Source: Aquiflexum balticum DSM 16537 (lineage in GTDB: Bacteria; Bacteroidota; Bacteroidia; Cytophagales; Cyclobacteriaceae). Taken from it: a stretch of DNA of 64,000 nucleotides. The stretch's first letter is position 1, and each line of letters begins with the position of its first letter. Position numbers and translations under genes: made by a program. The notes under the pieces were generated by a model. It did not search any database. It was not told the DNA's origin and saw only the letters and a program-made list of their open reading frames with translations. Location: contig NZ_LT838813.1 in assembly GCF_900176595.1 (NCBI RefSeq), positions 62,001 through 126,000 on the forward strand, read 5' to 3'. Of this stretch, positions 1,380 to 25,135 are shown piece by piece.

Positions 1380-1443
1380 TTTGAGATGAATCCAAACTTT
1401 CTTATGAAAGAAATCCTTTAAGGTGTGGGGCCTTTAACCAATA

Positions 1444-1481
1444 AGGGAAGTCCAATTCCAATAATTGGACTTCCCTGTTTT
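1444..1481 (+). terminator. Rho-independent terminator after the radical SAM gene
   Basis: A perfect 14-bp inverted repeat (1444-1457 with 1463-1476) has a 5-base loop and is followed by GTTTT and a further T-run. The T tract is on the + strand, so it serves the radical SAM gene and insulates it from the convergent oxidoreductase. Confidence 0.85.
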
Positions 1482-1532
1482 GAATTTTTCAATCTCGATT
1501 AAGGATTTGGTTTTATCTCTATGAAAAGGTTT

Positions 1533-3152
1533 TTAGCTTATATCATTGTTCAGAAGGATTTGATCCAAATCTTCCCCGGGTAAGGCAACGATTCTTTCAT
1601 TTTCTTCATCCCATTCTATCCTTCTTCCTATTTTGTAGGATAAGCCGCCCATATGGGCTGTAATGGCTTCCTCGAAACCTTCAACTATCCCGCAACTTGG
1701 CTCTCCTCCATTACGGATACAGCTCAGCCATTCCCTGATATGCAGGAAGGTAGAATCAACCCTTTTACCATCTCTATAGGTCCATAATAATCCTTTATTG
1801 GCAAAATATTTGGCAGTAGCTGAAGTCACCGCATCCACGCCATTGGCACTTGGATCATATTGGTAAATCGGTACCATGGGGTCTATGCGATTTTCTTTAA
1901 TCAAATCCGCATATTTTGTAGATCTTGGGTCAGCATGAATGGTTAGCATATTTCCCAACTCCATAGTGGCATCGTGTCCCATCAACAAGGTTCCTCTTTC
2001 GAACTGATTTCCCAAAGTGGCACTATAGACCAAAGTCATTCCTTTTTCTTTTCCGGGTTCCTGACTGCTGCCTGTACTGAAATCCGGGAAATCCATATTG
2101 ATCTGCATGACATCGGGAACATTTCTTCCATCTCTATGGGTATAAATCCCTCCCGATGCTGTAATGTATTTTGGAATTCCCATTTTCAACACACAGTTGA
2201 TCCTGTCATAATCATGGGTCAACAAATCACCGGAAAGTCCTGAACCATAGGCCCACCATTTCCTCCACCGGAAGAAATGTTCCGAATTGAAAGGTATTTT
2301 GGGTGCTGTTCCCAAAAAGGCATCCCAATCGATGGTACTTGGGGAAGCATCAGGATGGATGTCATATTGCCAGGCGCCATTGTCGTCGTTTCTATTTGTA
2401 GTCGTGGTGACCAACGATACATGGCCTAAAGTCATTTTTTCAATGGCATCTTGGGCTGTCAGGAAGCTTTGTGTTTGGCGATGTTGGTGACCAACAGCCA
2501 TGACTACATCGGGATTTCTCCTACAGGATTCTCTGAGGTCATAAGTCTCCTGAATTGTATGGGTCATTGGTTTTTCGATGTACACATGCAGACCGGCTTC
2601 TATGGCCTCTATAGCCATTGGTGCATGCCAATGATCAGGAGTTGCAATGATAATGGCATCAATTTCGCCACTGTTTATCATTTCGCTATGGGTACGATAG
2701 CGTTTGCATACATTCCCATCCTGATTGAAAGACGCAAGTGCTTTTTCGGCCCTTACATCAAAGATGTCACAGATCCCGGCCAATTTAACATTGAGGTTTT
2801 CCTGTGCCTTAAAATCCTCCAATCTTTTATCATTCGGATTCTCAGCACTGGATTTGGCCATTTGTTCTAACCATTCGGTGGTGGCAAATCCCAAAGACCG
2901 CATCAATTGCTCACCTCGTATCCCAAAACCAATGAGTCCGATTCTGAGCGGTTCCCCACTCATAGGGCCGGAAGCAGGTGGTGCAGAGGCTTTAATATTC
3001 AAGGTTTCCAAGAGAAGATTACGTTCAGATTTGGCTTTTTCACTAAACCTAAAGCCCGCAGTCCAAACTGCACCTACAATAGGGATACCTCCTAGTATTT
3101 TTAGCCAATCTCTTCTCGAAAGGCCTTTGAATAGATTTTTGTCAGTTTCCAT
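1533..3152 (-). CDS. Gfo/Idh/MocA family oxidoreductase with Tat signal
   Basis: A 539-residue NAD(P)-dependent oxidoreductase of the Gfo/Idh/MocA family. The N-terminus carries a twin-arginine-type signal (LSRRDWLKILGG then a hydrophobic stretch), so export in folded, cofactor-loaded form is likely. The Rossmann fingerprint GFGIRG is near residue 76 and the family motif IEKPMTH near 193. In this phylum such exported members act on glycosides or free sugars, for example by forming 3-keto sugars. The exact substrate cannot be read from sequence. It lies 5 bp downstream of the DoxX gene on the same strand, so the two form an operon. Confidence 0.88.
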   Translation of the reverse strand: METDKNLFKGLSRRDWLKILGGIPIVGAVWTAGFRFSEKAKSERNLLLETLNIKASAPPASGPMSGEPLRIGLIGFGIRGEQLMRSLGFATTEWLEQMAKSSAENPNDKRLEDFKAQENLNVKLAGICDIFDVRAEKALASFNQDGNVCKRYRTHSEMINSGEIDAIIIATPDHWHAPMAIEAIEAGLHVYIEKPMTHTIQETYDLRESCRRNPDVVMAVGHQHRQTQSFLTAQDAIEKMTLGHVSLVTTTTNRNDDNGAWQYDIHPDASPSTIDWDAFLGTAPKIPFNSEHFFRWRKWWAYGSGLSGDLLTHDYDRINCVLKMGIPKYITASGGIYTHRDGRNVPDVMQINMDFPDFSTGSSQEPGKEKGMTLVYSATLGNQFERGTLLMGHDATMELGNMLTIHADPRSTKYADLIKENRIDPMVPIYQYDPSANGVDAVTSATAKYFANKGLLWTYRDGKRVDSTFLHIREWLSCIRNGGEPSCGIVEGFEEAITAHMGGLSYKIGRRIEWDEENERIVALPGEDLDQILLNNDIS

Positions 3153-3157
3153 AGGAT

Positions 3158-3652
3158 TTAGTTTATAGGGTTAGAGGTCTGCAGCTTCTTCCTGTTGAAA
3201 AGCTTTTCAATGCCAAATACAAAATCTGTGGGAAACAAAAACACAACAAACAAAGCTGCTGCCTCAATCAGGTTTTTGTTTACCAACCAATAACTTCCTT
3301 CGCTTGGTCCTTGAGGGTAACCCGGAAACGGTGGGTGGGCAAAATAATACATCAACAACAAACCTATCCCTATGATACTGGCCCACTTGGTTTTAAATCC
3401 AATGATCAATGAAATGCCTACAAGAACCAAAGCGGCAATATTCAGGGTGTCGACAATGGATATCATTGACTCACTTGCCAACCATTTGAAAAAGGATTGC
3501 ATGTAAGTAGCACTTAATAGATATCCTTTTGCAGTCCAGGATGGACTATACAATTTGATCACACCTTCATATAGAAAGTGCCATCCTATCAGCAAACGCA
3601 TCAACACAAGGCTGAAGGTCTGCACAGAGGTGAATTTCGGGTTTTGAACCAT
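3158..3652 (-). CDS. DoxX family membrane protein
   Basis: A 164-residue membrane protein with about four hydrophobic segments and the DoxX-type N-terminus (RLLIGWHFLYEGVIKL). The loop FAHPPFPGYPQG, followed by a conserved region near the last helix, is typical of the DoxX/DoxD superfamily. Family members are linked to quinone or thiosulfate redox chemistry, but most are uncharacterised. Immediate coupling to an exported Gfo/Idh enzyme suggests it could pass electrons or anchor the complex; that role is inference. Confidence 0.85.
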   Translation of the reverse strand: MVQNPKFTSVQTFSLVLMRLLIGWHFLYEGVIKLYSPSWTAKGYLLSATYMQSFFKWLASESMISIVDTLNIAALVLVGISLIIGFKTKWASIIGIGLLLMYYFAHPPFPGYPQGPSEGSYWLVNKNLIEAAALFVVFLFPTDFVFGIEKLFNRKKLQTSNPIN

Positions 3653-3798
3653 AAGTATATACCGTTGATTTGATTCACGAAAGTACCTACGGAAACATTC
3701 AGAAAATATGACTTATGTCAATCTAAAACATGATGTACAACCTTAAATACCAGAAAATTCCAGTCAGAAAAATCGTTTCAAACAAGTCAAAATATCAT

Positions 3799-4305
3799 TT
3801 ACATGACTACTTTAATGTTCAAAAAATACTTGAGTAATTTGATCTCTTCATTCTCATACTTTTCTACCCTCAGGTGTTTGAAACAGTCATCATATTGAAT
3901 CCTGATAAAGAATTCAGCGCTGTCCAGTTCAATGGTTTTGGCCGTCAGAATAGAGATATCGTCGGTCTCTGCATATTCTACTTTTTTGATCATCGGATTT
4001 TCGACGATTGTTTTGGAACAAACAATATTTGCCTCATTCAAAAATGAAATAATCAAATCTCCCTCCCATGGTTCTGATTTTGAATATTGCTCTCCTCTCA
4101 ACCTCCCCGGGTTTTTCATAGAATTAATCAGTTTCACTGAATCCCTGGAGTCCATAGTAAAGCTGACCATAAGGATTTCAGGCGTGTTCTGCACCAACAA
4201 TATTTCTGCTTCATTTTCCTCCGCTACTTGTTCTTTGGAAGCTTTGCAACCGCTCAAAACAAACAATAAACAGACAAAGAGGAGAAAATTTGAATTATTT
4301 TTCAT
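3799..4305 (-). CDS. small lipoprotein, function unknown
   Basis: A 168-residue protein with a clear lipoprotein signal (hydrophobic stretch ending LSGC, Cys at about 20), so it is probably attached to the inner leaflet of the outer membrane or to the inner membrane. The mature part is acidic and mixed alpha/beta with no motif I recognise. It lies between the DoxX operon and the M64 peptidase on the same strand, with more than 40 bp to either neighbour, so it may be transcribed alone. Confidence 0.7.
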   Translation of the reverse strand: MKNNSNFLLFVCLLFVLSGCKASKEQVAEENEAEILLVQNTPEILMVSFTMDSRDSVKLINSMKNPGRLRGEQYSKSEPWEGDLIISFLNEANIVCSKTIVENPMIKKVEYAETDDISILTAKTIELDSAEFFIRIQYDDCFKHLRVEKYENEEIKLLKYFLNIKVVM

Positions 4306-4350
4306 AAGTACTTAATCAAACTTTTGAAGCTTTAATCGAGCTGAAGTGAA

Positions 4351-6192
4351 CTACCTGACAATACCAAATCTCAATATTTTTACAGATTTTTGGGCATTTA
4401 ATCTTATAAAATATTGCCCGGATTGAAGCTCCTTCACTTCAATGGGGATAACATTCCCGTTCCTTTCAAAAGCCCTGATTTCATTCAATATTCTGCCATT
4501 AATATCGATGATCTCAATGGATTCCAATAGAGGATCAATAAATTTCAGGTATTCAATAAAGACAATGTCGTTTGCTGGATTGGGATAAAATTTAAGACTT
4601 TCTGAAATCTCACCTTTTTCTGCAGACAGAATGATATTTACTGTTACTGTTACTTCAACTGAAACAGAATTGGAACAAGAATCCTTTATGGTAAATATCA
4701 CCTTGTTTTCTCCGACATCACCTCTTCCAAATTCAGTTTTGGACAATTTCATCTCAGTTATTTCACAATTATCAAAAGATCCATCATCCACATCTTCGGG
4801 ATTCAAAGTACCAAATCCATCAGAATCCAAGAAGATTTCAACATTTTTCGCTTTGATGGTGGGTTTAATGATATCGTCTACAGTGACTATCACCTCAGCT
4901 TCGGCTTCATTTCCACTGGAATCTATAGCTTTAAAGATAACTTTATTGTTACCCATATCTTCGCAAGTGAATTTTTCTTTAGAAATGCTGATTTCCACAA
5001 GCTCCACATCATCATAAGTGCCATCATCTATATCTTCTGCACAAACAATCGCTTCCCCATTTTCATCCAATTCGATTTTGACATTTTTGGTAACTATAAC
5101 AGGAGGCGTCAGGTCAGCAGCAGGCCCAATCACATTTATAAATTCTTCCCTGGAAAATACATTTTCGCCAGAACTATTTTTTGCTTTCAAAATGACTTTA
5201 TACTTTCCTCCGAATCTATAGGAAACCTCGGGATTTTTCTGATTACTTTTTTCGGGAGTTCCCCCTTCGAAAGTCCACTCCCAGGAGGTGGGATTGTGGG
5301 TAGACAAATCAAAAAACTTAACTTTTTCCAAAGACTTTACTTCCAATTTGTTGGCTCCAAACAGGACTATGGGTCTTGCGGGTGCTTCCGGCGTAGAAAG
5401 GAATTTCAATCTTGCTTCCAAATGATGGCTACATACATCACAAAAGTTTCTACCCAAAAATCTCATTTTACAATTTTGATGTGGCCTGTGCCAGGTAGGT
5501 GATTCGGCATGAGGATAAATTCCTATCCCATTTCTGTTCAAAAAACTCCTCCATTTATTTGTCAAAGGGTTGGCATCTTGAGTCATATTATGTCTTTCTC
5601 TGGCATATTGCGGCCCTGCCCAATATTCATCCCCCAAATCCCCATAGGTATGGCCCAATTCATGTATCATGATTTCAGCGGCCGAGGAATGTGTCGAAAA
5701 GACCGCAAAGGTTCCGCCGGATCCGCCATATTTGCTATCATTGACCACAAGTACCCCTATATCATAGAATGGCGTATTGTAAAATAAAACTGATAGAATC
5801 TTAATTGAGCGCCAAGCGACCAATAAGCGTTCAATATTATGAGACCAATAAGAGCTGCCAAAATAGTTATCAATCAGGTTATTGGGGTTCATAGCCGCCC
5901 CAGATACATTTGAAACTACTTTGATGGCATAAACATTGATAGCATTTCTGTAATTTCTCCATGGCATTTGTTCCAGCATTCCTGCTGTTGCATTTTTTGC
6001 ATCGTTGATAAATTTATCCTGTTGAGCGGCGGTGTAGCCATCTCCCAATATCACCATGTTGGTCACTTCATTTGGTGAACCACTGTAATGAATAATCTCC
6101 ATGGGCATCAACTGCGCCTTGGATTGAAGGGAAAACAATATGAAGACAAATGTCAAAATAACTTGAATTTGCTTTGTGTAAAATTTAACCAT
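4351..6192 (-). CDS. secreted M64-type metallopeptidase with PKD/HYR-like domains and T9SS sorting tail
   Basis: A 613-residue secreted zinc peptidase of the IgA-peptidase M64 type. The signal peptide ends near residue 26. The zinc motif HELGH is at 177-181, followed by a conserved GDLGDEY stretch. A PKD-like domain lies at about 275-355 (SWEWTFEGGTPEKS), followed by two successive ~75-residue HYR/Ig-like repeats, each starting with a KNV(K/E)I strand and containing EDIDDG or EDVDDG. The last ~85 residues (FYPNPANDIVFIEY through KILRFGIVR) match the type A C-terminal domain used for type IX secretion. It is probably surface-bound or released and degrades proteins outside the cell. No substrate can be named. 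Confidence 0.88.
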   Translation of the reverse strand: MVKFYTKQIQVILTFVFILFSLQSKAQLMPMEIIHYSGSPNEVTNMVILGDGYTAAQQDKFINDAKNATAGMLEQMPWRNYRNAINVYAIKVVSNVSGAAMNPNNLIDNYFGSSYWSHNIERLLVAWRSIKILSVLFYNTPFYDIGVLVVNDSKYGGSGGTFAVFSTHSSAAEIMIHELGHTYGDLGDEYWAGPQYARERHNMTQDANPLTNKWRSFLNRNGIGIYPHAESPTWHRPHQNCKMRFLGRNFCDVCSHHLEARLKFLSTPEAPARPIVLFGANKLEVKSLEKVKFFDLSTHNPTSWEWTFEGGTPEKSNQKNPEVSYRFGGKYKVILKAKNSSGENVFSREEFINVIGPAADLTPPVIVTKNVKIELDENGEAIVCAEDIDDGTYDDVELVEISISKEKFTCEDMGNNKVIFKAIDSSGNEAEAEVIVTVDDIIKPTIKAKNVEIFLDSDGFGTLNPEDVDDGSFDNCEITEMKLSKTEFGRGDVGENKVIFTIKDSCSNSVSVEVTVTVNIILSAEKGEISESLKFYPNPANDIVFIEYLKFIDPLLESIEIIDINGRILNEIRAFERNGNVIPIEVKELQSGQYFIRLNAQKSVKILRFGIVR

Positions 6193-6485
6193 GGCATACT
6201 TTATTGAAAAAAAACTTTAAAACTATCCTGACTATACCAAACCCTTGAGTTATAAGCGAAATAAAACCCAAAGTACCTAACCAAAATGATATCTTTCAAA
6301 AAAAGAAAGATACCTGCATAATGGGATTAACAAATCTCAATCAAAATTTCAATTACTTAGATTTCACCGCAACTCAGATACAAATAAAAAAGAGTGTGGC
6401 ACTAAGTGAAGGTAATTGAAAATGAAACGATGGTTTAATTTACCAAAATTGTTTTATCCCAGCACAAAATATTTACTTTTTTTCC
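6193..6485. other. intergenic region without genes
   Basis: 293 bp between two same-strand genes. It is AT-rich, with no open frame of interest and no strong hairpin. It presumably contains the promoter of the peptidase gene on the minus strand and the 3' end of the FAD oxidase transcript. Confidence 0.5.
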
Positions 6486-7847
6486 TTATTTTCCAAAGAT
6501 ATTTTTATTCAGATATGCATTTCTGAATTTTCCTTCAGGATCATACTTTGACAATAAGCCTTTAAAATCTTCAATTTTCGCATATCTATTGCTTAAAATT
6601 TCATAAGGAATGGTAAAAAGTTTAGCCCAATGAGGTCTGGGTTGAAACTTGTCCAACTTGGCTTCCATTTGAGGAAGTAAGGCCATAACTTCGGGTATTT
6701 CTTGCTTCCAGGTTGTATGGATAGCTACTGAGTCTCTTTGATAGGCTGTACTCATCCACAAATCATCTGCTTTGATGGTCCGGATTTCTGAAATAAAAAG
6801 ATGCGGATGAATCTGTGCTGACATGCCCCTGACTGCCATCATGGCTTCGTATCCATTTTCCAATGGGACAAAATATTCGGATTGCAGTTCTTTTCCTGCG
6901 CTTGGCTGGAACTCCATCTTGAAATGGGGAAGCCTGTCATACCACGGCCCTGCAACTCCCAACTGTTCCGAACAACTTTCAGCAGACATCGAGGGGACGG
7001 GGTGCATTTTGATACTTGCTTTTTTGGCTCCAAAAAAATCCTCAGGAAATTCAGGAGTTTCACCTTGCATTATTCTTTTTTTGACCCAAACTTCATTGAT
7101 CTTATCACTTCCCCAATCCAAAAACAAACTTACACTGTATCCTGAACCCATAATTTCCAGAAAATTGTCTTTTAGGGATTCCCAAGGTAAATCCATATAA
7201 ACCACCTGGGCCACTTCAAAAGTAGGTTGCAAATCCAATGTCACTTTGGTCACAGGCCCCAATGCTCCCAAACCCACTACAGCCCCATAAAATTCCTTAT
7301 CGGCTTTTCCCAAACTGACCAAGTCCCCATTTGCATTTACAAATTCTATGGCAGCTACTCCTGTGGAAAGATTTCCATTTTCCAATCCTGATCCATGGGT
7401 AGCTGTAGCAATTGTACCCGCTACGGAAATATGTGGCAAAGAAGCAAGATTATGCAAGGCAAAACCTTGCTCATGCAGATAGGTGCAAAGTTCGCCATAT
7501 TTGATACCGCCCTCCACCGTAACCTGCATTTTGTCTCTGTCCAAAGAAATCACCTTGTTCAAATGGTCAAAAGAAACCAACATCTCTTCAGAATCAGCTA
7601 TTCGGTTAAAAGAATGTCTTGAACCCAACACCCGAAGAGACTTACTTTTTCTTACAATTTCCTGCACTTCAGCAATTGTCTTGGGAAAGTGGACATTGTC
7701 GGTACTGAATTGAAAATTTTCCGCCCAGTTTAAAAGGTAATCCGCTTCCATTGTTTCGGGTTTTTTAGGTGAACAGGAAATCCATGGTGAAACCAAAGCT
7801 GCCCCAATCAGGGCCGAGGTGTTTTTGACAAAGGTTCTTTTGTTCAT
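6486..7847 (-). CDS. FAD-linked oxidase, alditol/aldonolactone oxidase family, exported
   Basis: A 453-residue vanillyl-alcohol-oxidase-fold flavoprotein. The motif VLGSRHSFNRIAD matches the segment of alditol oxidase and gulonolactone oxidase whose His attaches FAD covalently. ATATHGSG is the next FAD-binding loop, and the C-terminal half is the arabinonolactone-oxidase domain ending HWAKLF...KYDPEGKFRNAY. It probably oxidises a polyol or aldonolactone with oxygen or another acceptor. I start it at 7847 (MNKRTF) rather than the in-frame ATG at 7898, because this places a Tat/lipoprotein-like signal (TSALIGAALVSPWISC) at the N-terminus and leaves the -7 box TACCTTTC at 7861-7868 upstream. Confidence 0.85.
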   Translation of the reverse strand: MNKRTFVKNTSALIGAALVSPWISCSPKKPETMEADYLLNWAENFQFSTDNVHFPKTIAEVQEIVRKSKSLRVLGSRHSFNRIADSEEMLVSFDHLNKVISLDRDKMQVTVEGGIKYGELCTYLHEQGFALHNLASLPHISVAGTIATATHGSGLENGNLSTGVAAIEFVNANGDLVSLGKADKEFYGAVVGLGALGPVTKVTLDLQPTFEVAQVVYMDLPWESLKDNFLEIMGSGYSVSLFLDWGSDKINEVWVKKRIMQGETPEFPEDFFGAKKASIKMHPVPSMSAESCSEQLGVAGPWYDRLPHFKMEFQPSAGKELQSEYFVPLENGYEAMMAVRGMSAQIHPHLFISEIRTIKADDLWMSTAYQRDSVAIHTTWKQEIPEVMALLPQMEAKLDKFQPRPHWAKLFTIPYEILSNRYAKIEDFKGLLSKYDPEGKFRNAYLNKNIFGK

Positions 7848-7860
7848 GGGTTTGGTTTTT

Positions 7861-7868
7861 GAAAGGTA
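7861..7868 (-). promoter_or_regulatory. candidate -7 box of the FAD oxidase gene
   Basis: The minus strand reads TACCTTTC, 7/8 to the Bacteroidota TAnnTTTG consensus, 14 bp before the chosen start. It supports the short start. No convincing TTG box was seen at the right distance. Confidence 0.35.
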
Positions 7869-7944
7869 AGTTAGGGAAAAAAGACTTGCTTTACTCAATC
7901 CATAACTGATAAAGGGTTTCGGTTCAATTGTGCATTGTTCCTCG

Positions 7945-8021
7945 CCTTGTCATTTCGACCGGAGGGAGAAATCTATAAACCTGAAGGCAAAACAGATTTC
8001 TCCTTCGTCGAAATGACAAGG
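7945..8021. repeat. dispersed palindromic intergenic repeat (REP-like)
   Basis: Two complementary arms, CCTTGTCATTTCGAC at the left and GTCGAAATGACAAGG at the right, enclose a second inverted pair GAGAAATCT/AGATTTCTC. The transcript would fold into one long hairpin in either direction. Near-identical sequences are widespread between genes in Bacteroidota genomes. A degenerate relative is at 10245-10320. Confidence 0.75.
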
Positions 8022-8166
8022 AAAACCTTTTTCCAGTCCTAAGGCGTCTATTCATATTCTATCGTTTCATTCTCTTTAATCATGTTCCTCATTTGCTACG
8101 GAAAAGTCGTCTCAAATCTCAGGTTATATATCTTTCTTCTCCAGAAATGTAATCGGCACAAACTCC

Positions 8167-10137
8167 TCAATAATTCACCTTCAATTCCTTCACTTTGGTC
8201 GGTAACCAAACCTGCATTTCGCTGGCACCACGATTGGCCCAGGTGTAATAAGGAATAGCAGTGATTTTTTGATTTTTGGTGAGTACACTATTTCCATCTT
8301 CAGCTACAGTCACTACATTTACATTACCCTGAATGGCCATCACTTTTTCCTGAAGAACTGTATACTCTACTGCCTCAAAACTACTGTTTTCAGGCACGAC
8401 TATATTCCAGGCTTTCCCCTCATTATCCGCTCCCTCCACACAATAGACCATGGGGCCTCTTTGCAATGCAATCCTATCCTGATTGGCCTGTACTTCATTT
8501 CTTGCCCTGATTTTCCTGACTTCCATAGGGAGCTTATAGGTGATGACATCTCCTTTTCCCCACTTCCTGTCAATGGTAATATATCCGTTTTCGAGATTAT
8601 GTGCCACAGGTCTGCCGTTCAGCATTACTGAATAAGTCTGCTTGCTTTTTCCTTCAAATTGGTACAATCCACCCGGCACAGCTTCCTCCTTGGCCCAACC
8701 CGGCAACCTCATTCTCAATGCATACTGAGTCTTTTTGGAGGGATTCATGGCAATTGTAATCTCACCATCCAAAGGATAATTAGTGCTCATTTCAAAAGGA
8801 ACCTCCACCTTACCCATTTGGAAAGTAGTTGTGCTCCCGATGAAGAGATTGACCCAAATGGTGTTTTCGGAAGTTGCATAGATATAATCCCCGACCGAAG
8901 CGACCAACCGGGAAATATTGGAAGGACAGCAAGCTGTTCCAAACCAAGCCCTTCGGGAATGCTGTCCATTGGAAGCCAAGGGATTTCCATAAAAGAAGCT
9001 GTCCCCTTTCAGACTCAATCCATCCAGGGCCGCATTGTATAGACTTCGCTCCAATACATCCACATACTTGGAATCTCCTTCCAGGGAATTCATTCTTTGA
9101 TTCCAGAAAACCATACCCACCGAAGCACAGGTTTCACTGTATGCCCGCTCGTTGGGAAGGTCGTAATCCACTGAAAAACCTTCATTGCTACCCGAAGATC
9201 CTATCCCCCCTGTGATGTACATGTTTCTATGAACCACATCCTCCCACACTGTCTTCATGGCATTCATATATCCATCATCTTTTTTGGCGGCACCCACATC
9301 GGCGGCACCGGTGTACATATACATGGCCCTGACTGCATGACCTGTAATTTCTTTTTGATCTTTGACAGGGACATCATCTTGGGCATATTTTGGCCCCCAA
9401 TGTGGATTATTCCAAATCGCACCTACACCATGTCCCCTACCCCTTTGTTCCAAAAACCAATCGGACAATTCCAGATACTTTTCCTCATTAGTGACTTTGT
9501 ACAATTTGACCAAAGCCAGTTCGATTTCCTGATGGCCTACTACCCACGGCGTATTGCTTTGCCTGAACTGCTGATCGATATGGTCAGCCATTTTGATCCC
9601 TACATCCAATAATTTCCTTTTTCCGGTGGTCTGATAATAAGCCACACCGGCTTCTATCAGATGTCCCGCACAATAAGCCTCGTGTTTGTCCATGTCCTTC
9701 CACCTGTTTTCCAATCCGGTCAAGGTATAGAAAGTATTGATATAGCCATCCTCCTCTTGGGCAGCGGCTATTTTATCAATCCACTCATCTGCCTTTGCTT
9801 CCAATTCAGCATCCGAATGGTTTTTCAAAGAATAAGCAATGGCTTCCAAAGCTTTGTAGACATCACTGTCATCGTAATAAATGCCCTCATGCTTTTCATT
9901 TGCCCGCCTCGCTGCTTTTTCGAAATTGCGGATCCGGCCGGTTTCCACCTCTGTTTGTTGGATGCATACCTGCAAAGTGGTATTGGCTACTTTTTCCAGT
10001 TTTGGCTTCCAAAAATTGTCTGTGATAGTAACTTTGGAAAAGCTGACAGATTCAAGCCTTATCAGGTCAGATTGAGCATTTAGCGAGCTTGTGCCAAAGG
10101 TTATGACGGCTAGAATGAAATGCTTTAAAGTTCTCAT
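8167..10137 (-). CDS. glycoside hydrolase family 127 protein (beta-L-arabinofuranosidase type)
   Basis: A 656-residue secreted protein with a signal peptide (cleavage near 21) and a full DUF1680/GH127 fold. In the characterised enzyme HypBA1 the nucleophile is a zinc-bound Cys assisted by Glu. The corresponding positions here are E335 and C337 (ERAYSETC) and the pair C403-C404 (TACCPSNISR), all present. The expected activity is hydrolysis of beta-L-arabinofuranosides in the periplasm, though other activities occur in the family. The gene stands alone on the minus strand with a candidate promoter 26 bp upstream. Confidence 0.9.
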   Translation of the reverse strand: MRTLKHFILAVITFGTSSLNAQSDLIRLESVSFSKVTITDNFWKPKLEKVANTTLQVCIQQTEVETGRIRNFEKAARRANEKHEGIYYDDSDVYKALEAIAYSLKNHSDAELEAKADEWIDKIAAAQEEDGYINTFYTLTGLENRWKDMDKHEAYCAGHLIEAGVAYYQTTGKRKLLDVGIKMADHIDQQFRQSNTPWVVGHQEIELALVKLYKVTNEEKYLELSDWFLEQRGRGHGVGAIWNNPHWGPKYAQDDVPVKDQKEITGHAVRAMYMYTGAADVGAAKKDDGYMNAMKTVWEDVVHRNMYITGGIGSSGSNEGFSVDYDLPNERAYSETCASVGMVFWNQRMNSLEGDSKYVDVLERSLYNAALDGLSLKGDSFFYGNPLASNGQHSRRAWFGTACCPSNISRLVASVGDYIYATSENTIWVNLFIGSTTTFQMGKVEVPFEMSTNYPLDGEITIAMNPSKKTQYALRMRLPGWAKEEAVPGGLYQFEGKSKQTYSVMLNGRPVAHNLENGYITIDRKWGKGDVITYKLPMEVRKIRARNEVQANQDRIALQRGPMVYCVEGADNEGKAWNIVVPENSSFEAVEYTVLQEKVMAIQGNVNVVTVAEDGNSVLTKNQKITAIPYYTWANRGASEMQVWLPTKVKELKVNY

Positions 10138-15988: not shown

Positions 15989-16139
15989 AGATCAAGAAAT
16001 TTGGTTAAAAATAAAGTATTTATTTAAAATCCGTTGCTCATCTCATACGCCCCTCTCTTTAATTCTCCTTTTTCAGGTAGTATTTAAATGTTATATTTTG
16101 AATAACATCCGATTAATTCTCAAAATCCATTTTAAATAC

Positions 16140-16838
16140 ATGAAAATTACCTACTGCAATGATTACCAAAATATGAGCCAAATAGCAGCTCAAATAGTGA
16201 TAGAGGAGGTTTCTTGCAAACCTGATTTGCTTTTTTGTGCCGCCACAGGAAATTCGCCTACAGGGATGTATGCCGGGATGGCTGAGAATAAAGAAATGTT
16301 CCATAAAATGAAGGTGGTCAAAATGGATGAATGGGGAATCATCCCACTTTCCCATCCTGATTCCTGCGAAAGCTATCTTCAAAAGCATCTGTTGGATCCT
16401 TTGGAAATTCCAGACGCTCGTTACACGGGTTTTGATACTGCACCCCAAATTGTGGTTCAGGAGATCGGCCGCATGCAAAACTTTATCTCACAAAATGGAC
16501 CATTCGATATCTGTATCCTGGGATTGGGAAAAAACGGCCATATTGCTTTCAATGAACCGAATGAATATTTAGTACCGGAATTTCACAAAGCGAAATTGGC
16601 TGCATCAACCATCCAACATGACCCGGCTTTATCGCAAGGAAGCGAACCTGCTTATGGGCTTTGTGTTGGTATGAGAGATATTTTGTTAAGCAAAAAAATA
16701 ATCTTCTTGGTGACAGGAAAAGGCAAACAGACCGCCATTGATCAGATTTTGTCTAAAAAAATCACTACCCAATGTCCGGCATCTTTTCTTTGGATGCATC
16801 CCAATGTGGAATGTTTGATTGATAACTCAAGTCTTTAA
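16140..16838 (+). CDS. glucosamine/galactosamine-6-phosphate isomerase family protein
   Basis: A 232-residue NagB/AgaI-type protein. The phosphate-binding ATGNSPTG loop (35-42), the KMDEW segment with D63-E64, and GLGKNGHIAFNEP (128-140) are typical. In E. coli NagB the position here occupied by N132 is a catalytic Asp; H134 is kept. An Asn there is also seen in AgaI-like proteins, so galactosamine-6-phosphate or another sugar is possible. I chose the ATG at 16140 over an upstream in-frame ATG at 16098, because family alignment starts at MKITYCND. It is followed 10 bp later by an SDR gene. Confidence 0.82.
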   Translation: MKITYCNDYQNMSQIAAQIVIEEVSCKPDLLFCAATGNSPTGMYAGMAENKEMFHKMKVVKMDEWGIIPLSHPDSCESYLQKHLLDPLEIPDARYTGFDTAPQIVVQEIGRMQNFISQNGPFDICILGLGKNGHIAFNEPNEYLVPEFHKAKLAASTIQHDPALSQGSEPAYGLCVGMRDILLSKKIIFLVTGKGKQTAIDQILSKKITTQCPASFLWMHPNVECLIDNSSL

Positions 16839-16848
16839 AAATAATTTT

Positions 16849-17646
16849 ATGGAAAACTTAGAAGAATACAGTAAGCTACCGGGAATCAAGCTTTTTGACC
16901 TGAAAGGAAAATCAGCCATCATCACAGGTGGTTCAAAAGGACTTGGATTAGCAATGGCTGCGGGATTGGCCTCAGCAGGTGCGGACATCATGTTGGTAAG
17001 CCGGAATCTTGATGAAGGAGAAGCTGCTGCAAGAGAATTATCCCGGGCTTATGATGTTAAATCCATTGCATTTTCGGCAGATGTTTCGGATCAAAAGCAG
17101 ACCGAGGCCATGGCCAAAGCTGCTATGGATGCCTTTGGTAAGATTGATATTTTGATCAATTCAGCCGGAATCAATATCCGGGGACCTATAGACGAACTAA
17201 GCTTAGAAGATTTTTCGAGAGTCATGGATACCAATGTCACCGGAACTTGGCTTTGCAATAGGGCAGTGACCCCATATATGAAAAATGCCAAAAAGGGAAG
17301 TATTATCAATTTGGCCAGTACGCTTGGAATAGTCGGTCTGGCAAACAGGACGCCATACACTTCCAGCAAAGGGGCCGTGGTCCAAATGACACGGGCTTTG
17401 GGTTTGGAGTTGGCGCCATTTGGAATCCGGGTCAATGCCATTTGTCCGGGTCCATTTCTGACAGCCATGAATGTCCCGATTGCAAATACAGAGGAAGGAA
17501 AGAAATTTATCGTCGGTGCGACTGCCCTGGAAAGATGGGCTGAGCTCAGAGAAATCCAAGGGGCAGCACTTTTGTTGGCAAGTGAGGCGGGAAGCTATAT
17601 GGTCGGTTCGCTGATAACTGTAGACGGAGGTTGGACAGCACGTTGA
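16849..17646 (+). CDS. SDR family oxidoreductase, gluconate/deoxygluconate dehydrogenase-like
   Basis: A 265-residue classical short-chain dehydrogenase. The cofactor motif TGGSKGLG is near 26-33, the NSAG motif is present, and the catalytic Tyr and Lys are in YTSSKGA. The N-terminal KLFDLKGKSAIITGG and the C-terminal GSLITVDGGW resemble gluconate 5-dehydrogenase and 2-deoxy-D-gluconate 3-dehydrogenase. I start it at 16849, 10 bp after the NagB-like stop; an upstream alternative would overlap that gene. The partner gene and the convergent GntP transporter suggest acidic- or amino-sugar catabolism. Confidence 0.82.
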   Translation: MENLEEYSKLPGIKLFDLKGKSAIITGGSKGLGLAMAAGLASAGADIMLVSRNLDEGEAAARELSRAYDVKSIAFSADVSDQKQTEAMAKAAMDAFGKIDILINSAGINIRGPIDELSLEDFSRVMDTNVTGTWLCNRAVTPYMKNAKKGSIINLASTLGIVGLANRTPYTSSKGAVVQMTRALGLELAPFGIRVNAICPGPFLTAMNVPIANTEEGKKFIVGATALERWAELREIQGAALLLASEAGSYMVGSLITVDGGWTAR

Positions 17647-17653
17647 TTATTTT

Positions 17654-18982
17654 CTAATGGAACAGCGTAATAATGAAAATCACAGAAATTGCCGTAAGGG
17701 ATAAAATCAAAGTACCTAAACTGTGAGTCTTGTTTCCCTGTCGGATGGACATTCCTGAAAGTTGGGTGACTGCCCAGAAAAAACTGTCATTGGCATGGGA
17801 AATGGCCATAGCACCGGCACCGATTGACAAGACCGTAAACACTTTCATAGTTTCGGAATCCAATCCCAAGCTCACCAATAAAGGAGCAATGATCGATGCA
17901 GTGGTTATCATGGCAACTGTGGATGAACCCTGAGCTGTTTTCAAAGAAAAAGCAATCAAAAAAGGCAGAAATATACCCCAACTCGCTCCGCTCATATTTT
18001 GACTTACCAAATCACCTATTCCTGAATTTTGAAGCATTTTCCCAAACACCCCTCCTGCCCCGGTAATCAAAATAACAGGTGCTGCTATCCGAATAGCTTC
18101 CCCCATCCAACCACTGGCAGATAAGAGTTTGCGGTCAAATTTGGTAGGAAGTGTAAAAGATAAAACTGCCCCCAATAAAAGCGCAATGACTGGACTGCCC
18201 ACGAATTCAATAATAGAAACCCATTCACCATCCCCAAATGGTTTAGAGGGATATTTTGCAATTGACGCCAAGATAATCAGGACCAGTGGAACGATGACCG
18301 GAAGAAAGGATTTTGTAGCAGTCGGGGCTTTAGCCGCAACTGTATTCAAATCAATTTCCGCCAAAATAGGCTCTAAGGGGATTTTTGATACATATTTCTT
18401 GATAAAAAAATAAGCCGGAATAAGCGCAATCAAGCTGACGATTATCCCCCAAAAGATGATCATTCCCAAATCTGCTTCCAATATACCTGCTGTCGCAATT
18501 GGACCGGGAGTAGGCGGAACCAAAGAATGGCTGGCTGTAGCACCCAAAGCAACTGCAATAGTCGTAGCAGCGTAGGGTACCTTGCTTTTTAAGGAAAGAG
18601 ATTTGCTGATGGGATTCAGCATGATAAAGGTACTGTCTCCAAAAACAGGAATAGACAGGATATAACCACAGATGAGCATGGCCTTGGTGACTGATTTCTG
18701 ACCAATCCAAGAGAGAATCTTTTCCGCTATGACCAAAGCCCCTCCGGTTTTTTCCAGGAAGGTCCCCATAATCACCCCTAATAGAATCAATAAGCCTATA
18801 TTTCCCAAAACACCCCCAAAACCATCAGAAATAGATTTAAGGATAAGTTCTGTCGACATCCCTGAAACCAATCCATACACAATGGCACCAACAAAAAGGG
18901 CTAAAAATGGATGGATATCAAATTTGACAATGGCCACTAATATCAGTACCAAGGCGAAGAGGATTGTCAAAAGTATCAGCAT
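17654..18982 (-). CDS. GntP family permease (gluconate:H+ symporter type)
   Basis: A 442-residue, very hydrophobic protein with about 12 membrane segments. Features typical of the GntP/GntT family are GGVLGNIGLLILLGVIMG near 55-72, SLVPPTPGP near 150, AQGSSTVAMITT near 350 and SHANDSFFW near 400. It transports gluconate or a related sugar acid with protons across the inner membrane. It converges with the SDR gene (7 bp between stops). A -7 box TATCTTTT lies 22 bp upstream of the start. Confidence 0.9.
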   Translation of the reverse strand: MLILLTILFALVLILVAIVKFDIHPFLALFVGAIVYGLVSGMSTELILKSISDGFGGVLGNIGLLILLGVIMGTFLEKTGGALVIAEKILSWIGQKSVTKAMLICGYILSIPVFGDSTFIMLNPISKSLSLKSKVPYAATTIAVALGATASHSLVPPTPGPIATAGILEADLGMIIFWGIIVSLIALIPAYFFIKKYVSKIPLEPILAEIDLNTVAAKAPTATKSFLPVIVPLVLIILASIAKYPSKPFGDGEWVSIIEFVGSPVIALLLGAVLSFTLPTKFDRKLLSASGWMGEAIRIAAPVILITGAGGVFGKMLQNSGIGDLVSQNMSGASWGIFLPFLIAFSLKTAQGSSTVAMITTASIIAPLLVSLGLDSETMKVFTVLSIGAGAMAISHANDSFFWAVTQLSGMSIRQGNKTHSLGTLILSLTAISVIFIITLFH

Positions 18983-22334: not shown

Positions 22335-22415
22335 TTGCAAGTGTTTAATGGTTAAAGATACCATAATTTCCAAAAAAGAACCCAAACTGTTTCCGACTGA
22401 ATGGCACTTTAAGTA

Positions 22416-22424
22416 TGTGGATAA
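22416..22424. promoter_or_regulatory. conserved TGTGGATAA box upstream of ncRNA copy A
   Basis: TGTGGATAA is the reverse complement of the DnaA-box sequence TTATCCACA. It is part of a longer block (22414-22436) that recurs with two or three changes at 23774-23796, exactly 91 bp before the -7 box of each ncRNA copy, although the sequence between is poorly conserved. It may be a DnaA or other regulator site, or only a remnant of the duplication. Confidence 0.4.
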
Positions 22425-22506
22425 CTTTGTGATTTCTATGAAATATATGTGGGAAAATTGTGGAGAAAAAAGTATAAATATTATTGATAAACAGGTTATT
22501 AAATGC

Positions 22507-22514
22507 TAGCTTTG
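22507..22514 (+). promoter_or_regulatory. -7 promoter box of ncRNA copy A
   Basis: TAGCTTTG matches TAnnTTTG exactly. TTG lies 20 bp upstream (in ATTGATAAAC), as expected for the housekeeping promoter of Bacteroidota. It predicts transcription from about 22520. Confidence 0.6.
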
Positions 22515-22519
22515 ATTAT

Positions 22520-22812
22520 ATCAAGTGAGAGATAAAAGGCTGAAAGTAAAATTTCAGACAACGATCCAAAACTCGTGATGAAGGTACAAAGGGGCTGATA
22601 CTTCAAAGTTGAAAGTCTGAGATGGTTTACCACAGAAATACTGGAATCAAGGCGCAAAATCGAAAGGTGGAGATTGCTAGAGTTTGAAATCTAAAGTTAA
22701 GCACTCGGGCAACTGGGGAAATGTCATAATAACTGCAGCTTGGCATGGTTTGAGGACTATGGTTTTCAAGTCATGGAGCGGGAAAAATTCGAAAGAGTTT
22801 TTCCCGTTTTTG
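22520..22812 (+). ncRNA. candidate structured ncRNA, copy A
   Basis: A stretch with no useful open frame that recurs at 23880-24172 with about 93% identity and no net length difference (constant offset of 1360 bp). It has its own promoter and ends in a strong terminator. Visible hairpins are CTGAAA/TTTCAG (22540-22557), ACGA/TCGT (22561-22576), and a stem formed by TCTG/CAGA (22616-22619 with 22633-22636) that continues as TGG/CCA around a TTTA loop. In the last stem, T22623-A22632 is C-G in copy B, a compensatory change, and the C of ACGA becomes T in copy B, keeping a G-U pair. I see no marks of RNase P RNA, tmRNA, SRP RNA or a typical 6S RNA. Ends are predicted. Confidence 0.65.
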
Positions 22813-22817
22813 TTTTT
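22779..22817 (+). terminator. terminator of ncRNA copy A
   Basis: CGGGAAAAA (22779-22787) pairs with TTTTTCCCG (22798-22806) around a 10-base loop and is followed by TTTTTGTTTTT. The T-tract direction sets the + strand for the ncRNA. Confidence 0.8.
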
Positions 22818-22945
22818 ACCCAACTGATTTTACAGCTTCGACAGCCCAAGCGAAATATAAGAAGATTCCAAACTAAGAAAACACGTTTATTGGAGGTCTA
22901 TTAAAACCATTCCTCTGAGAGAATAAAAACAATAAGAAAAAATTG

Positions 22946-22986
22946 AAGAAGCCCTATGAAATATGGTTCATAGGGCTTCTTTTTTC
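22946..22986. terminator. bidirectional terminator beside the peroxiredoxin gene
   Basis: A 15-bp perfect stem (22946-22960 with 22967-22981, core GAAGCCCTATGAA) with loop ATATGG has T-runs on both strands. It ends the minus-strand peroxiredoxin transcript and could also stop read-through from ncRNA copy A. Confidence 0.85.
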
Positions 22987-23000
22987 TAATCAAAAATAGT

Positions 23001-23648
23001 TTAAATATCCTTTTTTGCGAGGTAGAAATCTACCATTTCATAATCACTTGCTTCTCTTTCGATCATTTCGGCTACAGTTTTTGGCGGCGGAACAATCACT
23101 TTCTGACCAGGTCTCCAATCCAATGGCATGGCTACCTTATATTTGTCTGCGGTCTGAAGGGCTATCAAAACTCTTTTGATTTCATCCATATTCCTACCAA
23201 CATTCAAAGGATAGTACATGATCAGTCTTATTTTTCCGGTCGGATCTATAAAGAATACGGCTCTGACCGCAGCAGTTTCGCTTTCCCCAGGTTGCAACAT
23301 ACCGTAGAGTTTTGAAACTTTCATGTCGATATCGGCAATGATCGGAAATTCAAACAAAACCCCGGTATTCTTCTTGACATTGTTTACCCAGGCAATATGC
23401 GAGTGAATGGAATCAATGCTCAATCCAATCAACTTGGCATCATGCTCATCAAAGAATTTTTGTTCCAAAGCAAAACCGCTCATTTCTGTGGTACAAACAG
23501 GAGTGAAATCAGCAGGGTGGGAAAACAGGACTGTCCAGCTGTCTTTAATATATTGCGAAAACTGTATAGGACCCGTTGTAGTCATCGCTTTAAAATCAGG
23601 GGCCAGATCCCCAATTCTTGGCATAGTAAATACTTCTTGTTCATTCAT
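23001..23648 (-). CDS. 1-Cys peroxiredoxin (Prx6 type)
   Basis: A 215-residue peroxiredoxin. The peroxidatic cysteine is C52 in FTPVCTTEMSGF, preceded by SHPADFT, and the C-terminal dimerisation domain (DWRPGQKVIVPPP) is that of the Prx6 subfamily. There is no resolving Cys in the usual place, so a 1-Cys mechanism with an external thiol is likely. It reduces hydrogen peroxide and organic peroxides in the cytoplasm. The gene stands alone between two + strand ncRNA copies and ends at a strong bidirectional terminator. Confidence 0.92.
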   Translation of the reverse strand: MNEQEVFTMPRIGDLAPDFKAMTTTGPIQFSQYIKDSWTVLFSHPADFTPVCTTEMSGFALEQKFFDEHDAKLIGLSIDSIHSHIAWVNNVKKNTGVLFEFPIIADIDMKVSKLYGMLQPGESETAAVRAVFFIDPTGKIRLIMYYPLNVGRNMDEIKRVLIALQTADKYKVAMPLDWRPGQKVIVPPPKTVAEMIEREASDYEMVDFYLAKKDI

Positions 23649-23775
23649 GATTATATGTTTTTTTATCCTTTACTAAAATTTTGATAATCAAATATCAGGT
23701 TAACTAAACTTTCTAAAGGAGACAAAAGTCACAATAAGGATTAATATTCCATAGGTAAAATCTATGGCTCATATA

Positions 23776-23784
23776 TGTGGATAA
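23776..23784. promoter_or_regulatory. conserved TGTGGATAA box upstream of ncRNA copy B
   Basis: This is the second occurrence of the box at 22416-22424, at the same spacing to the -7 element. Here it also lies upstream of the divergent peroxiredoxin gene. Confidence 0.4.
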
Positions 23785-23866
23785 CTATGTGATTTCAGCT
23801 GAAAATTGGTGGGAAAGTTGTTGAAAAATAACTTGGTAATAAATAGTATTTCAGTTAATTATCATC

Positions 23867-23874
23867 TAAATTTG
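23867..23874 (+). promoter_or_regulatory. -7 promoter box of ncRNA copy B
   Basis: TAAATTTG matches TAnnTTTG exactly, at the position equivalent to TAGCTTTG of copy A. The two variable bases differ while the fixed bases are kept, as expected for a functional promoter. The upstream TTG of copy A is not preserved. Confidence 0.55.
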
Positions 23875-23879
23875 ATTAT

Positions 23880-24172
23880 ATCAAGTGAGAGATAAAAGGC
23901 TGAAAGTAAAATTTCAGACAATGATCCAAAACTCGTGATGAAGGTGCAAAGGGACTGAAACTTTAGGGTTGAAAGTCTGAGACGGTTTACCGCAGAAGTA
24001 CTGAATTCAAGCCTCGAAACCGAAAGGTGGAGATTGCCAGAGTTTGAAATCTAAAGTTAAGCACTCGGGTAACTGGGGAAAAGTCATAATAACTGTAGCT
24101 TGGCATGGTTTGAGGACTATGGTTTTCAAGTCATGAAGCGGGAAAAATTCGAAAGAGTTTTTCCCGTTTTTG
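23880..24172 (+). ncRNA. candidate structured ncRNA, copy B
   Basis: Paralogue of copy A, with the same predicted length and about 20 substitutions. Differences cluster in two segments (about 23955-23977 and 24003-24017), while the 3' third, from GAAATCTAAAGTTAAGCAC to the terminator, is almost unchanged. In the TCTG/CAGA stem the pair is C23983-G23992, against T-A in copy A. It is read towards the frameshifted hydrolase gene, but a strong terminator separates them. Confidence 0.65.
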
Positions 24173-24178
24173 TTTTTT
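24139..24178 (+). terminator. terminator of ncRNA copy B
   Basis: The CGGGAAAAA/TTTTTCCCG stem is the same as in copy A (24139-24147 with 24158-24166), followed by TTTTTGTTTTTT. Confidence 0.8.
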
Positions 24179-24225
24179 GACTACTTCATAAAGATTTGCC
24201 AAATGCAAAAAGCCAATGGTACCCC

Positions 24226-25135
24226 ATGAAGATAAAACCAATATCCCATTTCAAAGACGAAATCAGGGATAGAGAATATTTTGAACATTGGGTAAAACAA
24301 CTTGAAAAAGCTAATCAAAGAAAATACGAGCGGATCGAGGTCAAAACATCACTTGGAATCACCCAAGTCTGGGGTTTAAATTCCGCTGATCCGAAACTGG
24401 AGACTTTAGTGATCTTCCCAGGCGCCAGGACGACAGCTTTGATTTGGGATTTTGATAGGGGTCTGGACAACCTGAACCAAAAAATTAGGATCTTTTTGGT
24501 AGAAACGAATGGTTTGCCAAATCTGAGCGATGGGACCACACCGGATATCAAAACCTTGGATTATGGAATTTGGGCCAATGAAGTTTTTGACAAGTTAGAA
24601 ATTAAAAAAGCATTTATTGCCGGAGCCTCATTTGGGGGATTGATCTGTATGAAACTTGGAATTACCAATCCTGGAAAAATAAAAGCAGCATTTCTTCTTA
24701 ATCCAGGCTGTCTTCAATTTTTTTTCACTCGGTTTGACAAACCTTTTCTATAACATTTTACCCATACTAAGTCCTAAACCTCGAAATGTTTTGAGATTTT
24801 TGGATAAGGCCATTTTTGCAAAGCCCAACCACCAACTCTCGCCCCATTCAGAGAAAATGCTGGTGGACTATGAAGTATTTGCTATCAGTCGCTATAAGGA
24901 CAATACCCAGAAACCTTACTACATGAACCAAGAACTAGCAAAAGTAAAAGTGGACACTTACCTCCTTCTAGGGGACAAGGACTTATTATTCCCATATCAA
25001 AAATCCATTGAAAATGCCAAGAAGCACATCAAACAGTTAAAGGACATCAAAATATTTCAAAATGTTGGGCATGGTATAGAAACCTATCCCCACGCCATGC
25101 AATATATCGGGGAAAGGATTAAAGAGGTTTCTTAG
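24226..25135 (+). pseudogene. alpha/beta hydrolase, frameshifted at a T8 run
   Basis: Two overlapping frames together encode one alpha/beta hydrolase of about 300 residues. The first frame (from ATG 24226) has the nucleophile elbow GASFGG and ends in TGA-free read-through to a stop at 24753. The second frame, entered at the T-run, carries the acid segment LLGDKDLLFP and the catalytic His of NVGHGIE. The frames meet at eight consecutive T bases (24718-24725); with seven the reading would be continuous (Q-F-F-S-L-G-L-T-N). It is either a recent inactivation, a phase-variable tract or a sequencing error. The second frame alone has no ATG at the junction. Confidence 0.75.

Follow-up and report, generated by a model that had tools for sequence, protein, structure and literature searches.

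Structured RNA genes in Bacteroidota headed by same-strand arrays of DnaA-type boxes

What do two closely similar, seemingly non-coding sequences on either side of a peroxiredoxin-like gene encode, and what might control them? The question is raised by a 64,000-nt stretch of the Aquiflexum balticum DSM 16537 genome (NZ_LT838813.1, positions 62,001 to 126,000; hereafter the window, in whose coordinates positions are given), in which an initial annotation had proposed an apparently undescribed structured RNA gene in two paralogous copies. Our comparisons support this proposal and the finding proved larger than was stated: the RNA has homologues far beyond its own locus, the gene is headed in two orders by an array of DnaA-type boxes, and its longer members repeat a structural module, the last two features being additions to what had been described. 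We consider it probable, with room for doubt, that the copies are paralogous genes for a stable, structured non-coding RNA of ~295 nt, that their promoter is controlled by DnaA through the same-strand box array, and that the RNA acts in trans by binding protein.

In pairwise alignment, the copies (22520-22812 and 23880-24172) match without gaps and differ at 21 of 293 nt, in line with the roughly 20 substitutions first estimated. Thirteen of the differences occupy unpaired columns of the consensus structure, six keep the pairing and two leave a non-standard pair in one copy; T22623-A22632 against C23983-G23992, already read as a compensatory change, is a true one and forms the outermost pair of helix P4c. 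The exact TAnnTTTG -7 elements and the common terminator that had been noticed were likewise confirmed, both copies ending in a strong CGGGAAAAA...TTTTTCCCG terminator (Table 1). DNA and covariance-model searches of the genome (one contig, 5.99 Mb) found two copies only, at 84.5 and 85.9 kb, and in the sister species the pair recurs with gene order preserved, alongside a third copy that has diverged. Copy 2 shares 97.6% identity with its sister-species counterpart and 92.9% with copy 1, and the 140 bp upstream of it are 88.7% and 57.0% identical to the respective sequences, so that the duplication looks older than the split between the two species. Copy 1 has a less certain history: it shares 91.9% identity with its counterpart and 92.9% with copy 2, its upstream region 69.0% and 57.0%, and exchange between the copies is possible.

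Folding of the single sequences was not decisive (copy 1, z = -2.06, 8/200 shuffles as good; copy 2, z = -3.48, 0/200), and the firm structural evidence is comparative. From 44 elements of 280-312 nt we removed near-copies, leaving 41, and then five that carry a lineage-specific insert, to obtain an alignment of 36 non-redundant sequences of the ~295-nt type. Its consensus comprises 70 pairs in 13 helices with 91.8% of cells paired, a figure that favours the structure because the consensus was derived from the same sequences. The stronger point is the two-sided changes, which affected 54 pairs and 380 cells, as compared with shuffle means of 35.6 and 117.1 (reached by 0/500 shuffles) and at most 106 cells in slid controls. 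By its covarying structure the element qualifies as a structured non-coding RNA gene, with a predicted transcript of ~295 nt, as the initial annotation would have led one to expect. The fold begins with a core closed by P1, holding hairpin P2, the long-range helix P3, a three-way junction of P4, P4b and P4c, and hairpins P5 and P6, and continues with a 14-bp hairpin, P7, and the terminator. The P7 loop reads UAUG in the window copies and UACG in most homologues; judged by eye, GNRA loops cap P4c, P5 and P6 in most rows of the alignment, the window P4c being an exception.

The RNA also varies in size. All 14 long forms found in genus g103 (602-617 nt) repeat the three-way-junction module, for which a regular expression matched four times in nine of them, three times in four and twice in one, a count that includes some matches with poor closing stems and misses divergent modules. 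Members from a small-genome sister family, among the matches listed, measure ~230 nt. By eye, the ~610-nt RNAs at three loci (L188, L189, L192) of f23, a family of the same class in another order, carry distinct internal repeats of their own, which suggests that modules were multiplied on more than one occasion.

This architecture bears on how the RNA might act. Most bacterial regulatory RNAs act by base-pairing with mRNAs, and that general mode, together with the position of several copies near sugar, sulfatase and sugar-acid genes, speaks for an RNA that is made from the same promoter and regulates mRNAs by pairing with them. We regard this alternative as doubtful, given the compact fold, the GNRA loops, the repeated junction modules and the lack, by eye, of any long conserved unpaired seed. 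Protein binding, as scaffold or decoy, is the mode we favour over antisense pairing, because, in addition to the compact fold and its GNRA loops, unpaired bases in junctions and loops are conserved, the number of modules varies and no long unpaired stretch is obvious; the RNA would thus probably act in trans. The repeats of CsrB are GGA hairpin loops, and the likeness of our RNA to CsrB and CsrC, namely protein-binding-like modules repeated in variable number, concerns module repetition only, a sponge role being putative; its repeated unit differs in being a three-way junction rather than a GGA loop.

No known RNA accounts for the element. Rfam 15 at curated thresholds returned no match in the window, and relaxing the limit to E = 10 gave only a few matches that overlap the copies, at the terminator or promoter and far below threshold; among divergent members there was none at the RNA in nine loci (two tRNAs lie elsewhere in L128) and none in eight further loci. 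The claim that the RNA is not RNase P RNA, tmRNA or 6S RNA therefore stood. ARAGORN found no tmRNA in the window, the genuine one being at genome positions 2435718-2436122 (118.7 bits), and RNase P RNA (RF00010) had no window match and a genuine copy at genome positions 3829121-3829532 (279.1 bits). The 6S RNA is a long hairpin with a central bubble, made from its own promoter; our RNA resembles it and 6S-Flavo as a stable RNA with its own promoter, for which a growth-linked logic is conceivable, and differs in being multibranched by consensus and in having no Rfam match. A search of the genome for 6S-Flavo, run without a positive control, did not find it. OLE, GOLLD, ROOL and raiA are large structured RNAs with dedicated genes and an unknown or scaffold-like function, and share with our RNA a complex conserved fold and a dedicated gene; they differ in that the window RNA has no Rfam match at curated thresholds. 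A coding gene can be set aside, as can a conserved reading frame, which had not been seen in the two copies either: the longest ATG-initiated open reading frame (ORF) on the RNA strand spans 5-48 codons in 40 of 41 related RNAs and 75 codons in one. Nor is the RNA a leader of the next gene, as it ends in a terminator and the downstream called ORF lies on the same strand in 61/112 cases, on the opposite strand in 50/112 and is absent in 1/112.

To follow the RNA across genomes we used a covariance model of its 3' domain (R1) and a broader model built from 95 sequences (R2), counting genomes at E up to 0.001 without inspecting them one by one. R1 matched 121/390 genomes (31/84 genera) in the window's family, Cyclobacteriaceae. 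An order-wide sample gave 49/390 genomes, of which 37 belong to the same family, 9 to the small-genome sister family (two R1 matches in 8 of these 9) and 3 to families f13 and f16, whose weak matches we do not count as members. Named records with the 3' motif come from Cyclobacterium, Cecembia, Mongoliitalea, Pleomorphovibrio, Algoriphagus, Aquiflexum and an uncultured Marinoscillum. Across the phylum, R2 matched 13/395 genomes, one of them (L191) judged false, and in f23, whose members are more divergent, 105/301 genomes (14/25 genera), an upper figure, since 3 of 10 phylum-wide loci inspected matched by the terminator only. Among 29 f23 loci read, 25 carry the common 5' ATCAAnnACGnnGTA motif with up to two changes, and the f23 loci are likely, though not proven, homologues of the window RNA. 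Four loci were rejected as merely terminator-like (L079, L191, L193, L194) and three as chance matches of the search pattern (L144, L161 and L163, with 8 of 23 stretches read); loci repeating others were left out of the locus set.

Some species carry several copies per genome, some of them in tandem, as might be expected of a mobile element, or one of phage descent, that brings its own DnaA-type origin. We give this alternative hardly any credence: a blastn search with copy 1 of 72,556 plasmid and 50,697 phage records found no match, the pair is syntenic in the sister species, and the copies, at 84-86 kb, lie away from the GC-skew switch at roughly 0.5-1.3 Mb (20 samples of 20 kb, noisy), which also argues against a site at the replication origin. 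At locus L057 (genome G095, 570-9699) four model matches fall within 10 kb of a sugar-oxidation cluster encoding SMP-30/gluconolactonase, short-chain dehydrogenase/reductase (SDR), zinc alcohol dehydrogenase (ADH), aldonolactone oxidase and xylose-isomerase-like proteins; the match at 5101, which has no 5' motif, is perhaps a decayed one.

Upstream of both copies we found the motif TGTGNAWAA, which is the DnaA-box consensus TTWTNCACA read on the opposite strand. Three boxes precede each copy on the RNA strand, spaced by 32 and 11 bp in both cases, despite upstream regions that are only 57% identical, and in copy 1 the boxes at 22448 and 22459 form a same-strand double box with a 2-bp gap. For the family at large we collected those elements that have the 5' motif as well as 200 nt of upstream sequence (98/112), which reduce to 89 non-redundant promoters. 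Between -150 and -30 these hold 77 strict boxes on the RNA strand and 1 on the opposite strand (shuffle mean 4.9, maximum 14; 200 shuffles), with at least one in 53/89. Allowing one mismatch, there are 274 forward and 16 reverse boxes, two or more in 73/89 promoters, and box-to-box distances peak at 11-12, 21-23, 32-34, 43-45, 54-55 and 65-66 bp. By comparison, 681 windows upstream of ORFs at these loci, measured from the start codon, yielded 0 forward and 5 reverse boxes, and of the direct double boxes counted over 1.24 Mb, 92/109 lie at most 170 bp upstream of an RNA and on its strand. The pattern TGTGNATAACTTTGTG occurs at up to one mismatch in three places of the A. balticum genome, namely the two RNA promoters and the inside of a 490-codon frame; at two mismatches it has 24 matches, against 13 for a reversed control pattern. 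The genome's own DnaA carries the DnaA C-terminal domain (108.1 bits). The array pitch of ~11 bp is the one measured for double boxes with E. coli DnaA, which favours box pairs with a 2-3 bp gap, or an 11-12 bp pitch (PMC11317965). Separately, L180 (genome positions 616000-635000), a stretch chosen for its matches and so biased, holds 17 TGTGNAWAA in 19 kb, 0.89 per kb as compared with 0.00-0.67 in seven other stretches.

The array extends to f23 in a variant form. The 25 f23 loci with the 5' motif yield 23 non-redundant promoters, mostly from one genus and not compared with shuffles, all of which (23/23) carry TGTKNAWAA boxes, 73 forward and 1 reverse, concentrated at -61/-62 (20), -93 to -95 (18), -157 to -159 (16) and -182 to -184 (11). 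Another f23 set of 6 promoters from three genera (6 of the 9 loci L186-L194) has 23 forward and 0 reverse boxes (shuffle mean 1.2, maximum 5; 500 shuffles). dnaA, with its start placed by the GGRDH motif, was found in 4 of 11 f23 contig starts: in G1249, G1363 and G1300, all of one genus, five or six f23-type boxes on mixed strands lie within ~260 bp upstream of it, and in G1265 four boxes within ~410 bp. This clustering supports DnaA as the reader of the f23 variant. In G1249, five DnaA-type boxes on both strands (L248, 9020-9138) precede the inferred dnaA start by ~80-200 bp and are likely an origin or an autoregulation site.

A minority of promoters follows another design. Seven elements (L099, L100, two in L137, L138, L140 and L141) have TGAYNNNNRTCA (pattern TGAYN4RTCA), which we take to be an FNR-like dyad, at -49/-50; four have a second dyad at -71, and six are without any DnaA box. 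L101 (-36) and L085 (-59, looser gap) match the pattern and carry DnaA boxes, and were kept out of the class. ORFs of three clusters, represented in L100 by a PAS histidine kinase, a LuxR-type response regulator and a Crp/Fnr-type regulator, recur near the RNA in five of the loci (L100, L137, L138, L140, L141). As FNR-like promoters head the same RNA and regulator genes lie nearby, one RNA scaffold seems to have been plugged into different switches.

These promoters bear on two further alternatives. The same RNA family might have its array read by another transcription factor that prefers TGTKNATAA repeats and answers to another signal: the minority class with its five regulator-flanked loci indicates that the RNA is not tied to one regulator, the fourth box base is mostly T in f23, and binding of DnaA at the array is a prediction. 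We think this unlikely, as consensus, same-strand order and the 2-3 bp gap are those measured as DnaA's preference, and three of four f23 genomes, those three being of one genus, have these box variants clustered ahead of dnaA. Alternatively, the arrays could be DnaA-titration or reactivation sites with the RNA gene secondary, on the model of datA and DARS, which are DnaA-bound sites beside genes (PMC11317965). This we hold to be improbable: the distance from array to promoter is fixed, strong covariation shows that the RNA itself is maintained, and the FNR-like promoters, six of seven box-free, head the same RNA.

In the reading we prefer, each gene would be transcribed from its own promoter to its own terminator, the replication initiator DnaA would control that promoter through the upstream same-strand boxes phased by one helical turn, and RNA output would follow DnaA-ATP or the state of replication. 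We infer transcription, DnaA occupancy and the direction of control, like protein binding, from sequence; for E. coli DnaA both activation and repression are on record (PMC11317965). That DnaA directly drives a large modular non-coding RNA across much of Bacteroidota, and so might link replication to a protein-based control circuit, strikes us as evenly balanced. Several results weigh against the reading we prefer. About two-thirds of the genomes in the window's family (269/390) have no R1 match. The compared promoters share descent, so their box counts are not independent, and 36/89 are without a strict box and 10/89 without any box within one mismatch. The f23 boxes are mostly TGTTNATAA, one base off the E. 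coli consensus, with strict TGTG in 9/73. No box cluster at dnaA was found in the A. balticum genome or in G380, so that the box type has no origin check there. Finally, comparison of loci found no protein partner or constant neighbour of the RNA, the commonest ORF cluster (represented by a sulfatase) occurring in 17/93 loci, with flanks of up to 8 kb that are shorter in several.

Large structured RNAs conserved over such distances tend toward central roles. If correct, the proposal would provide a direct, testable link from replication initiation to RNA-based control in Bacteroidota, and a conserved regulatory output for a phylum about whose cell-cycle control little is known; the 89 non-redundant promoters, most of them with boxes, form a large set for studying DnaA action on transcription. 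In our searches of an open-access library we found no RNA gene described with a conserved upstream DnaA-box array, and no description of this RNA for Cyclobacteriaceae or Algoriphagus. We regard the system as categorically new, because it matches no known RNA family and we found no RNA gene under such DnaA-array control described there; orphan structured RNA genes as such have precedents. The nearest published idea that we met is CcnA of the alphaproteobacterium Caulobacter crescentus, a 182-nt cell-cycle RNA at the origin that has weak DnaA boxes inside its gene, is presumably activated by CtrA and acts on the ctrA and gcrA mRNAs (PMC8959179). Both are non-coding RNAs associated with DnaA boxes and, for CcnA, the cell cycle, whereas the window RNA genes are dispersed or tandem, have their boxes upstream of the gene and encode a complex fold; no result here relates the two. 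The E. coli DnaA regulon shares boxes with a 2-3 bp gap upstream of its targets and differs in that these, in the part of the paper at hand, are protein genes or DnaA control sites, with no RNA gene among them (PMC11317965). A Flavobacterium psychrophilum transcriptome lists 85 new RNAs, whose sequences were not compared with the window RNA, and the word DnaA is absent from such of its text as was accessible (PMC9723704).

Table 1. Coordinates of the two RNA genes, their upstream elements and the intervening ORF in the window
Feature	Position	Strand	Remark
DnaA-type box TGTGGATAA (exact TTATCCACA on opposite strand), copy 1	22416-22424	+	position recurs across family
DnaA-type box TGTGGGAAA, 1 mismatch, copy 1	22448-22456	+	32 bp past first box
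DnaA-type box TGTGGAGAA, 1 mismatch, copy 1	22459-22467	+	11 bp past second: double box
-7 promoter element TAGCTTTG (TAnnTTTG), copy 1	22507-22514	+	also in upstream sequences of homologues
Structured RNA, copy 1	22521-22815	+	start inferred from promoter and first P1 base
Core domain, copy 1, closed by P1 (22521-22526/22738-22743)	22521-22743	+	
P1b, copy 1	22538-22540/22723-22725	+	
P2 hairpin, copy 1	22541-22556	+	
P3, copy 1	22557-22565/22689-22698	+	
Three-way-junction module, copy 1	22583-22642	+	repeated in long homologues
P4, copy 1	22583-22587/22638-22642	+	
Hairpin P4b, copy 1	22593-22617	+	
Hairpin P4c, copy 1	22623-22632	+	
P6 hairpin, GNRA-type loop (GCAA), copy 1	22704-22717	+	
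P7 14-bp hairpin, UNCG-like loop, copy 1	22744-22775	+	
Intrinsic terminator hairpin and T-run, copy 1	22776-22815	+	
Peroxiredoxin-like ORF between copies	23001-23648	-	name taken from initial annotation
DnaA-type box TGTGGATAA, exact, copy 2	23776-23784	+	
Weak DnaA-type box GGTGGGAAA, 2 mismatches, copy 2	23808-23816	+	32-bp offset as in copy 1
DnaA-type box TGTTGAAAA, 1 mismatch, copy 2	23819-23827	+	
-7 promoter element TAAATTTG (TAnnTTTG), copy 2	23867-23874	+	
Structured RNA, copy 2	23881-24175	+	
Three-way-junction module, copy 2	23943-24002	+	
Intrinsic terminator, copy 2	24136-24175	+	

The peroxiredoxin-like ORF was rejected as part of the system and looks incidental, because among 20 homologous stretches only that of the sister species has it between the copies, and in L051 it lies ~6 kb away. 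A strong hairpin with a T-run at 22939-22986, 3' of this gene, underlies several weak Rfam matches and is probably an ordinary terminator. Downstream of copy 2, two overlapping forward-strand ORFs (24196-24753 and 24734-25135) match a single intact 312-aa alpha/beta-hydrolase ORF of the sister species (L044, 6188-7126), so that the gene is either interrupted here or affected by a sequence error. Further upstream, a 6-phosphogluconolactonase/glucosamine-isomerase-type gene and a GntP permease lie near the RNA pair (16098-18982), and ORFs related to those of this region recur in L044, L052, L057, L107 and L108.

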